This document shows positions 1,459 to 48,130 of a DNA stretch of 64,000 nt, piece by piece (the stretch's first letter is position 1; every line of letters starts with the position of its first letter). Where the stretch lies: NCBI RefSeq assembly GCF_019880225.1, contig NZ_CP082284.1, positions 620,001 to 684,000 on the forward strand. Reading direction: 5' to 3'. Under the pieces are notes generated by a model. The model was not told the origin of the DNA, did not search any database, and saw nothing but the letters and a program-made list of their open reading frames with translations. Source of the DNA: Halobaculum rubrum (GTDB lineage: Archaea > Halobacteriota > Halobacteria > Halobacteriales > Haloferacaceae). The position numbers and the translations under genes are program-made.

Positions 1459-1565
1459 CTCCGGAAGACGGTCGCGCTCACTTCGTTCGCGCGCTGCGAC
1501 TTCCGTGCTCAAATCGGCTCGGCGTCGGTTTCTCGACGGTTCGCTCCGCTCGCCGTCTCAAAATA

Positions 1566-5339: not shown

Positions 5340-5463
5340 CTCCTCGCTCGGTACCTCGTCGGCGACGGTCCGGAACTGACGAAGTGGGCTCGGACGGGTT
5401 GGACGCGGTCACTGTCGTTCCCTGCTCACGAGTTCGCTTCGTTCCTCTCGTGTCGGCGGCAGA

Positions 5464-5489
5464 ACTGGGCTCGGGCGGAGTTGAACCAC
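5464..5489 (-). repeat. tRNA-Val 3'-end copy A
   Basis: Identical over 26 bp to 5788-5813, which spans two bases beyond the discriminator, the acceptor 3' strand, the T-stem 3' strand and part of the T-loop. It shares 28 bp with copy B. The rest of the tRNA is absent, so it is not a tRNA gene. Confidence 0.85.
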
Positions 5490-5515
5490 GCCGAGACGTT
5501 CCGGGTCGCTCGCGA

Positions 5516-5545
5516 CGCTCACGGGTCACTTCGTTCCCCGTTCGC
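5516..5545 (-). repeat. Dispersed ~30 bp intergenic repeat, copy 1
   Basis: On the minus strand this matches 13128-13158 and 48100-48130 with one difference in 30 bp. All copies lie between genes, next to other repeats. Core bases: GAACGGGGAACG, then AGTGACCCGTGAGCG. Confidence 0.75.
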
Positions 5546-5674
5546 ATCGAGGTCTCGCTTCGCTCGACCTCGTACCGCTCGCTTCCCGGGCTGCGACTCG
5601 TCTGGTTCAACACCGCTGACGCCATGCACGCGGCCACGGCTCCTCGCTTCGCTCGTCGCGGTGTGGCCGCGAGA

Positions 5675-5700
5675 ACTGGGCTCGGGCGGAGTTGAACCAC
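5675..5700 (-). repeat. tRNA-Val 3'-end copy B
   Basis: An exact 26-bp copy of 5788-5813, 211 bp from copy A and 113 bp from the tRNA itself. Same boundaries as copy A, so the duplicated unit has a fixed inner end. Confidence 0.85.
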
Positions 5701-5789
5701 GGTCGTTCCGCTCGCGGCGCTCGCTTCACTCCCTGCTTCAGACTCCGCCTCGCAGAACGTCCCGGCCCTCGCTCCGCTCGGCACTCGAC

Positions 5790-5862
5790 TGGGCTCGGGC
5801 GGAGTTGAACCACCGATCTCTTCCTTGTAAGGGAAGCGTCATAACCACTAGACCACGAGCCC
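5790..5862 (-). tRNA. tRNA-Val (TAC)
   Basis: The minus strand folds as a 73-nt tRNA: acceptor GGGCTCG/CGAGCCC, anticodon stem CTTCC/GGAAG with loop CTTACAA (anticodon TAC), T-stem GGTGG/CCGCC with loop TTCAACT, discriminator A. No intron, no encoded CCA. The 3' end is copied twice downstream. Confidence 0.96.
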
Positions 5863-12144: not shown

Positions 12145-13089
12145 ATGGACGACGACCTCCGTTCCGCGGCAGAAACGGCGATCCACCAGTGTCTCGATCT
12201 GGGGGACGACGAGTCGCTCGCTGTCCTCACCGACGACAAGCGCGAATCGATCGGCGAGGCGCTGTATGCGGTCGCCAGCGACGTGACCGCCGACGCGAGT
12301 ATCGTCCGCTACCCGCCCGCCGCCCAACACGGTGAGGAGCCGCCGGCTCCCGTGGCCGCCGCGATGCGGGACGCGGACGCCTTTCTCGCGCCGACGACGA
12401 AGAGCCTCAGCCACACCCGCGCCCGCGGCGCCGCCTGCGACGCCGGCGCCCGCGGCGCGACGCTGCCGGGGATCACCCGCGACGTGTTCGTCGCCGGCCT
12501 CGACGCCGATTACGAGGCTATCGCACAGCACTGCGCCGACGTGCGCGCGCAGGTCGACGGCGCCGACGAGATCCGCGTCACGACGGAGGCGGGAACGGAC
12601 ATCACCTTCGAACCCGGAGACCGCGAGTTCCTGTCGGACACCGGCGACGTGAGCGAGCCGGGGTCGTTCTCGAACCTCCCGGCGGGGGAGGTGTTCGTCA
12701 GTCCAGAGGACGCGAACGGAACCTACGTCGTCGACGGGACGATGATGCCCCACGGGCTGCTTGACGGGCGGGAACTCCGCTTCGAGGTCGAGGACGGCTT
12801 CGTCACCGAGATATCCGACGGCGAGGTCCGCGAGCAGGTCGATGCGGCCGCCGAGGAGGTCGGCGAGGACGCGTACAACCTCGCGGAACTGGGCATCGGA
12901 ACGAACGTCGGCGTCACGGATCTGGTTGGCTCTGTGTTGCTCGACGAGAAGGCCGCCGGCACGGTACACATCGCCATCGGCGACGACGCGGGGATCGGCG
13001 GCGACACCGATGCGCCGCTGCACCTCGACGGGATCGTGACCGAGCCGACCGTGTACGCGGACGGCGAGGAAGTGGAACTTCCTCGGTGA
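12145..13089 (+). CDS. M29-like aminopeptidase
   Basis: A 314-residue protein resembling thermophilic M29 metallo-aminopeptidases (AmpS/AmpT). It has the family blocks FSNLPAGEVFVSPE, GTYVVDGTM, ELGIGTNVGVTDLVGS and DEKAAGTVHIAIGDD, with metal-ligand candidates Glu in PAGEV, His in TVHIAIG and His/Asp in LHLDGI. It is shorter than the ~400-residue family norm, with a reduced N-terminal domain. The ATG at 12145 is preferred over upstream Arg-rich codons. Its last 24 coding bases, with the stop codon, belong to a 25-bp repeat found again 158 bp downstream. Confidence 0.85.
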   Translation: MDDDLRSAAETAIHQCLDLGDDESLAVLTDDKRESIGEALYAVASDVTADASIVRYPPAAQHGEEPPAPVAAAMRDADAFLAPTTKSLSHTRARGAACDAGARGATLPGITRDVFVAGLDADYEAIAQHCADVRAQVDGADEIRVTTEAGTDITFEPGDREFLSDTGDVSEPGSFSNLPAGEVFVSPEDANGTYVVDGTMMPHGLLDGRELRFEVEDGFVTEISDGEVREQVDAAAEEVGEDAYNLAELGIGTNVGVTDLVGSVLLDEKAAGTVHIAIGDDAGIGGDTDAPLHLDGIVTEPTVYADGEEVELPR

Positions 13090-13099
13090 GCGAGCGGGG

Positions 13100-13124
13100 C
13101 GTGGCCGACCGAAGGGAGGCCACG
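13100..13124. repeat. Stem-loop repeat, copy 1 (CGTGGCC/GGCCACG)
   Basis: A 7-bp stem encloses the 11-nt loop GACCGAAGGGA. The same loop occurs at 48033-48057 with stem CGAGGCC/GGCCTCG: the third base pair is swapped from T-A to A-T, keeping the pairing. The 30-bp repeat starts 4 bp further on. Confidence 0.7.
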
Positions 13125-13127
13125 AGA

Positions 13128-13158
13128 GGCGAACGGGGAACGGAGTGACCCGTGAGCG
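13128..13158 (+). repeat. Dispersed ~30 bp intergenic repeat, copy 2
   Basis: 31 bp identical to 48100-48130 and 30 bp near-identical to the complement of 5516-5545. It lies in a gene-free spacer directly after the stem-loop. Confidence 0.8.
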
Positions 13159-13306
13159 GCGCAGCCGCGAGCAGGGGAGGCCGTAGACCTCCCGAACGTC
13201 GAGCGGTGAAACCGCAAGACGGGGAGGAAGTGGAACTTCCTCGGTGAGTGAGCGGTAGGGCTCGCGCCGAGGGAGGTCGCTGTCGACGGTGTGGACGGAC
13301 GGACGC

Positions 13307-47928: not shown

Positions 47929-48032
47929 GGATACTCGTCGTCTGTGGGTTATCCCACGTCGATATAAGGTGTTTGCGGAACGCAGGCGTCGGCGGCGTTG
48001 TCGAGGGAGCGAGCGTGCGCGGTCGAGCGAGT

Positions 48033-48057
48033 CGAGGCCGACCGAAGGGAGGCCTCG
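48033..48057. repeat. Stem-loop repeat, copy 2 (CGAGGCC/GGCCTCG)
   Basis: Seven-bp stem around the loop GACCGAAGGGA, identical in loop to 13100-13124 but with one compensated base pair in the stem. A 30-bp repeat unit follows 2 bp later, as in the other copy. Confidence 0.7.
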
Positions 48058-48059
48058 AT

Positions 48060-48130
48060 GCGAGCGGGGAGTGGAACGACCCGCGAGCGAGACCGCGACG
48101 GCGAACGGGGAACGGAGTGACCCGTGAGCG
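48060..48130 (+). repeat. Dispersed ~30 bp intergenic repeat, copies 3a and 3b
   Basis: Unit 3b (48100-48130) is identical over 31 bp to 13128-13158. Unit 3a (48060-48089) is a diverged version with the same start (GCGA) and end (GAGCG). An 11-bp spacer lies between the two 30-bp units. Two related units side by side suggest local duplication. Confidence 0.75.

Follow-up and report, generated by a model that had tools for sequence, protein, structure and literature searches.

Two adjacent hairpins, H1 and H2 (Table 1), in a 64-kb stretch of Halobaculum rubrum DNA (the window; GC content, 68.7%) probably represent a haloarchaeal family of miniature noncoding mobile DNA elements, ~60 bp in length, in which hairpins are arranged head to tail. 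The window is haloarchaeal by its GC content, and a named Halobaculum saliterrae locus has ~92% aligned identity to its genome over 4.1 kb. Members of the family share one anatomy, have covarying stems, and are present nearly throughout the order; they are found in arrays, at sites that are filled, empty, or occupied by remnants among congeners, and as near-identical copies at unrelated loci. A preliminary description of this site had reported a stem-loop followed by a 30-bp repeat. The observation was real yet undersized, in that the stem-loop and the 30-bp unit together form one apparently mobile doublet, whose sites in congeners are in some cases filled and in others empty.

Anatomy of the doublet

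H1 and H2 are built on one plan, stem-GA-XY-GNA-Y'X'-GA-stem', with tandem G·A mismatches and a GNA triloop. H2 has in addition a second GA/GA pair outside its 5-bp stem, and the 3' GA of this pair is present in 38 of 38 H2-like model matches, which were chosen by their 5' GA. Together, H1, a spacer of 4 to 6 nt, and H2 make a doublet of ~60 bp that runs in a single direction, and the invariant core lies on one strand, the GA strand.

The stem-loop with the loop GACCGAAGGGA is found, as reported, at both 13 kb and 48 kb (both on the + strand), and one of its stem pairs indeed changes from T-A to A-T. The loop itself had been called invariant, and this does not hold: it is GA-XY-GNA-Y'X'-GA, in which XY and the middle loop base N vary while the structure is kept. 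The 30-bp repeat follows the stem-loop at 13 kb as described. At 48 kb the adjoining unit is instead an 81%-identical variant, and the exact unit is present 41 bp later. The further 30-bp unit reported at 5.5 kb is also there (minus strand), together with a stem-loop of its own that was overlooked because its core, GAGCGAAGCGA, differs.

Table 1. Hairpins and associated copies (window positions, except the last row, which gives cluster positions)
Feature	Position	Strand	Sequence or remark
H1	13100-13124	+	CGTGGCC-GA-CC-GAA-GG-GA-GGCCACG
H2 (the 30-bp unit)	13129-13157	+	GC-GA-ACGGG-GA-AC-GGA-GT-GA-CCCGT-GA-GC; nested tandem G·A
Gene-end copy, left of doublet	13060-13097	+	holds perfect GGA-triloop palindrome CGAGGAAGT-GGA-ACTTCCTCG
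Further GNA-triloop hairpin	13156-13168	+	GCGGC-GCA-GCCGC; directly 3' of H2
Second gene-end copy	13218-13255	+	95% identical to 13060-13097; older copy, judged from congeners
H1 copy	48032-48058	+	TCGAGGCC-GA-CC-GAA-GG-GA-GGCCTCGA
H2 variant	48060-48088 (unit to 48090)	+	GC-GA-GCGGG-GA-GT-GGA-AC-GA-CCCGC-GA-GC
Second H2 at 48 kb	48101-48129 (unit to 48130)	+	matches unit at 13129
H1 copy	5548-5572	-	CGAGGTC-GA-GC-GAA-GC-GA-GACCTCG
H2 copy, GAA loop	5517-5545 (unit from 5516)	-	downstream, in its own direction, of H1 at 5548-5572
Single hairpin	1473-1493	-	CGCGC-GA-AC-GAA-GT-GA-GCGCG; adjoins tRNA-Phe
Clusters with ACGGCGTTCACAAATCGC repeat	1595555 (L105), 1364719 (L098), 1506921 (L102), 1724451 (L110), 954039 (L091)		

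Several other features lie close to these hairpins. The end of the M29 peptidase gene is duplicated on the two sides of the 13-kb doublet and forms a GGA-triloop palindrome. Stretches resembling tRNA 3' ends repeat around the doublet at 5400-5862 (minus strand), downstream of tRNA-Val, and such pieces likewise flank the hairpins of clusters 1559136, 1654687, and 2271244. A tRNA-Gln called by ARAGORN inside the peptidase gene (12267-12359, minus strand) has no Rfam support and is probably false.

Excess of the motif, family size, and covariation

The genome has 17 occurrences of the loop sequence GACCGAAGGGA, compared with a single one of the reversed control. An 864-kb sample of the genome, scanned with counts that double by strand, has 32 loci that combine a stem of ≥7 bp with two mismatched positions; the mismatches are GA/GA in 14 of them, each of which carries a GNA triloop. 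Every one of the 23 GA/GNA hairpins with a stem of 5 bp or longer is intergenic, in a sample of which called genes cover 86.5%; the three with 4-bp stems all lie within genes. These gene calls are from a caller trained on acidic ORFs, two earlier versions having been discarded since they picked antisense ORFs. When GANNGNANNGA was searched for with no requirement for pairing (intergenic fraction, 13.5%), the 163 intergenic sites had excess pairing at both inner and outer positions, while no such excess was detected at 551 genic sites or for the control motifs. A census of the loops on all stems of at least 8 bp showed little contrast, as most of what it captures is palindromes in coding sequence.

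A covariance model built from 22 hairpins has 139 matches in this Halobaculum genome at an E value of ≤1 and 115 at ≤0.006, the latter forming 57 clusters. The possibility raised in the preliminary description that the copies first seen are the only ones in the genome is thus eliminated. The 22 model rows were preselected for pairing, and covariation counts derived from them are therefore biased. An unbiased test used a pattern in which the letters were left free at three places: one stem pair, one inner pair, and the middle of the loop. It returned at least 80 loci; those used were 77 haloarchaeal loci (96 copies), and 3 loci with 3 copies from other taxa were excluded. Among the haloarchaeal copies listed, the two variable pairs are Watson-Crick in 91/96 and 90/96, compared with expected values of 30.3 and 33.6; all four pair types occur at the stem position, and G·T pairs are scarce (3/96 and 0/96). 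The 43 distinct sequences among those listed include 38 and 37 that are Watson-Crick at the two pairs.

The picture is the same in an alignment fitted to the model, with 150 matches (94 distinct) out of 180 found: 9 of 9 pairs have double-sided changes, slid controls are far lower, and G·T is rare. The GA/GA mismatches are invariant in 94/94 distinct copies aligned by this model, which itself favors them. The GNA loop is present in 92/94 distinct copies of the same model-fitted alignment, which places the predicted fold within the d(GNA) minihairpin definition. Both the covariance model and the covariation tests support the earlier view of a dispersed repeat whose pairing is conserved by compensation. 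Stems broken without compensation, which had been named as evidence against that view, do occur in part: the orthologous copies of two congeners (L124 and L125) have uncompensated core changes, indicating that single copies decay though the structure of the family persists.

Orientation, arrays, and relations between clusters

Multiple copies are present in 29 of the 57 clusters, and none of these 29 has copies on both strands. An H2 starts within 16 nt after an H1-like hairpin in 35/56 cases, mostly with a gap of 4 nt, and precedes an H1-like hairpin in 8. Alignments between clusters (≥45 bp, ≥85% identity) number 129, with array-internal repeats counted repeatedly, and cover 48 of the 57 clusters. 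Tandem arrays were observed near 1995020 (L113; a 77-bp period repeated 7 times) and near 2718537 (L119; a 70-bp period repeated 4 times). A second type of doublet is located after CGAAG, in the loops of GNA hairpins at 402668, 1724451, 1766474, and 2135154. A separate palindromic repeat, starting ACGGCGTTCACAAATCGC, adjoins the hairpins of some clusters (Table 1), which have 67 to 107 bp of it in common at ~86 to 91% identity.

Filled, empty, and remnant sites among congeners

A 63-bp in-frame doublet in mutS (an NCBIfam equivalog) is missing from 9 of 10 congeners, in which the site is empty; the locus of the tenth is unaligned there. In ogg (OGG-like by assignment, as it scores under the NCBIfam cutoff and above the Pfam cutoffs), a 60-bp in-frame doublet corresponds to clean empty sites in 8 of 10 congeners and to 18-bp remnants in 2. 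Over 81 bp, the mutS and ogg inserts share 95.1% identity, and the two sites have flanking letters in common, TCGCCGA on the left and CGAG on the right. The hef gene contains in-frame copies, and 4 of the 11 species have variants at a single site.

Eleven species were compared at the 3' site of the M29 aminopeptidase gene. The doublet or its H2 is present in four of them (our own locus, L124, L125 with two, and L128), a truncated doublet is found in L129, and six species have none. When L128 is compared with L132 and L133, the difference appears as a ~62-bp insert with an 8-bp direct repeat at its sides. At the 48-kb site the congeners are too diverged for the boundaries to be read. Over 90 positions, clusters 1724451 and 2135154 have 4 differences, which consist of a compensated stem pair (2), a restored pair (1), and the loop base N (1), all of them neutral or favorable to the structure.

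Since the mutS and ogg inserts are near-identical and sites are filled, empty, or remnant among congeners, we conclude from these sequence comparisons that the copies are mobile or recently dispersed. No constant target duplication was found: mutS has a 2-bp ambiguity, the aminopeptidase site has the 8-bp direct repeat, and the second doublet type has CGAAG at both ends. On reading of the mutS and ogg inserts, no terminal inverted repeats were seen in either. Copies in or overlapping genes of the repair type are those of mutS, ogg, hef, and an Lhr-type helicase, which is a small and unplanned count; the remaining overlapped genes are metabolic or have no assigned function.

Passive spread without a dedicated enzyme is quite unlikely. 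In this scheme, doublets would be copied through template switching guided by microhomology or through short gene conversion, and palindrome correction would keep the arms complementary. Exact tandem arrays, such as the 7 copies of the 77-bp period, and the position of the aminopeptidase insert between 8-bp direct repeats are consistent with such a process. So are the flanks that mutS and ogg have in common around the insert, which as sequences would fit homology-guided copying and a transposase equally. However, palindrome correction should erase GA/GA too, and GA/GA is invariant in the 94 distinct copies of the model that favors it. Covariation is, in addition, family-wide and extends over many genera.

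A folded DNA strand is favored over RNA

Forty-five of the 57 clusters are clear of called ORFs, and 12 overlap them. The intergenic clusters comprise 13 sense and 13 antisense clusters between tandem genes, 10 in divergent regions, and 9 in convergent regions. An unlikely alternative to a DNA element is that the hairpins act in transcripts as structured RNA (in 3' untranslated region stability, termination, or processing), the DNA copies being merely sites of a module. In agreement with this, 11/22 sense intergenic clusters, compared with 0/22 antisense ones, start no more than 11 bp past a stop codon, and in Haloferax volcanii a hairpin close to a 3' end is able to terminate transcription (PMC7237163, in part). 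Part of the skew toward stop codons may come from the sharp 5' end and unsharp 3' end of arrays. The 77 named loci also have a sense bias (19 sense-sense versus 7 anti-anti). This bias is weak evidence, since the caller used for these mixed-species loci was noisy: of 79 clusters, it placed 26 within ORFs and 9 at their edges.

The calculated energies for 13096-13160 are -31.5 kcal/mol for the GA strand versus -22.8 kcal/mol for the other strand as RNA, and -15.1 versus -13.0 as DNA. The preference of RNA folding for the GA strand is strong (z, -4.1 to -5.7), and DNA folding shows such a preference less clearly. Set against an action in transcripts are the even 13:13 split in tandem regions of our own genome, the 10 clusters in divergent regions, the near absence of G·T pairs, and the in-frame copies in mutS, ogg, and hef. 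No Rfam covariance model matches at the site, and we therefore rejected a known RNA family.

The preliminary description had left open whether RNA or a cruciform matters, and the evidence leans toward DNA. We favor folded single-stranded DNA on three grounds: the equal numbers of sense and antisense clusters between tandem genes (13:13), the scarcity of G·T pairs, and the agreement of the core with the published rule for DNA minihairpins. Sheared tandem G·A pairs would stack beneath a GNA minihairpin. GNA and GNNA loops on at least two G-C pairs are reported to form extraordinarily stable DNA minihairpins, and GCGAAGC melts at ~78°C (excerpted text of PMC4686876).

We suggest that the GA strand, whenever it is single (in a replication gap, a transcription bubble, or an extruded cruciform), would fold into d(GCGAAGC)/GNA-type minihairpins stacked on sheared tandem G·A pairs. 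A putative structure-reading enzyme or recombination process would recognize this fold and copy the doublet to new sites. If active copies are chosen by shape, the stems could drift as long as they stay paired.

Distribution and candidate movers

At an E value of ≤0.01, 182 of 195 genomes of the order have matches. In a draw from the phylum, 73 of 294 genomes match; these are 50 of the 53 listed as members of the order and 23 of the 241 others. The 23 have 1 or 2 hits each, mostly weak, with the exception of G389 (20 hits). This is the only genome from outside the order with many matches; its assembly is fragmentary, and it represents either contamination or a sister lineage. The copy numbers in the order and phylum runs are lower bounds because few candidates were scored per genome. 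Four haloarchaeal plasmids match, and in the two that were inspected the hairpins lie between divergent genes. We rejected an origin from viruses or phages, as a 23-letter pattern had no match in viral contigs and the window doublet had none in phages.

The near universality of the family in the order, along with the single strand orientation of each cluster, would also be expected of protein-binding sites for chromosome organization (gyrase, SMC, or similar) that are selected locus by locus. We regard this as very improbable: at the three sites that are best resolved, the 11 congeners differ in whether a copy is present, and by eye the clusters have no consistent chromosomal strand.

The Y1 transposase family PF01797 is present in 115 of 195 genomes, and the hairpins are found in 74 of the 80 genomes that lack it. 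We therefore rejected mobilization by RAYT/IS200 as a general cause. No recurrent transposase or neighbor gene was found among 120 flanking or overlapping genes (commonest 25 of 219 Pfam families). Observations that go against the reading of the family as mobile DNA elements are the absence of Y1 transposase from these hairpin-bearing genomes, the lack of a recurrent transposase, the shared mutS and ogg flanks, the lack of a constant target duplication, imperfect strand neutrality, the clearer preference of RNA folding for the GA strand, and uncompensated decay. A more specific proposal is tentative and, in our judgment, rather doubtful. In it, a mobile element of nearly all haloarchaea would be recognized in its folded, single-stranded DNA form through a natural GNA minihairpin with sheared tandem G·A pairs and would be moved by an enzyme specific for that structure, other than RAYT and IS200/IS605; the loops of the first doublet type would serve as targets for the second.

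Relation to known repeats and significance

The label that fits best is a REP-like element family of new design, which is neither GTAG/CGTC REP nor REPIN. Bacterial REPs are described in PMC3733652 (in excerpt) as short, multicopy, imperfect, and mostly extragenic palindromes with alternative complementary stem residues and some copies in genes, all of which resembles what we find here. According to the same excerpt, the in-gene copies are often in replication or repair genes, and the cleavage of single-stranded REP by RAYT is affected by mismatches close to the loop. In contrast to these, the haloarchaeal element is archaeal, has an invariant GA/GNA core, is independent of Y1, and has no tag: within 12 nt, GTAG occurs in 2 (5') and 1 (3') of 115 copies, and CGTC occurs in 3 (5') and 2 (3') of 115. 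As in REPINs, where compensatory changes are common, a doublet rather than a single hairpin seems to be the replicating unit (PMC3116915, in part). A REPIN is an inverted doublet that forms one hairpin, whereas here there are two head-to-tail hairpins and 0/29 mixed-strand clusters.

Haloquadratum SMR-A and PATEs (PMC3119063, portions on these elements) are likewise haloarchaeal and transposase free, and the mobilizer of SMR is unknown. SMR-A inserts within the palindromes of other elements, which is comparable to the second doublet type in GNA-hairpin loops. By the same portions, SMR-A is ~110 bp with terminal inverted repeats and PATEs relate to IS605 ends; our element is ~60 bp, and no terminal inverted repeat was seen in the inserts read. 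The palindromic elements of Rickettsia also insert in frame into genes (PMC10969869, in part); they are ~150 bp and from another host, and we set them apart by description, not by sequence. The d(GCGAAGC)/GNA minihairpins share the GNA loop on at least two pairs. In the excerpted text of PMC4686876, however, they are parts for chemistry and aptamers, with no natural repeat. None of the titles and abstract openings retrieved from the open-license literature describes the present element, which is weak evidence of absence.

If this reading is correct, archaea would have a counterpart of bacterial REP with a different, chemically defined hairpin, and the GNA DNA minihairpin would have a natural setting. 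With covariation, empty sites, and near-identical copies at hand, culturable and genetically tractable hosts would allow a test of what moves repeats of this kind in the absence of a dedicated transposase. The in-frame copies in mutS, ogg, and hef bear on genome stability.
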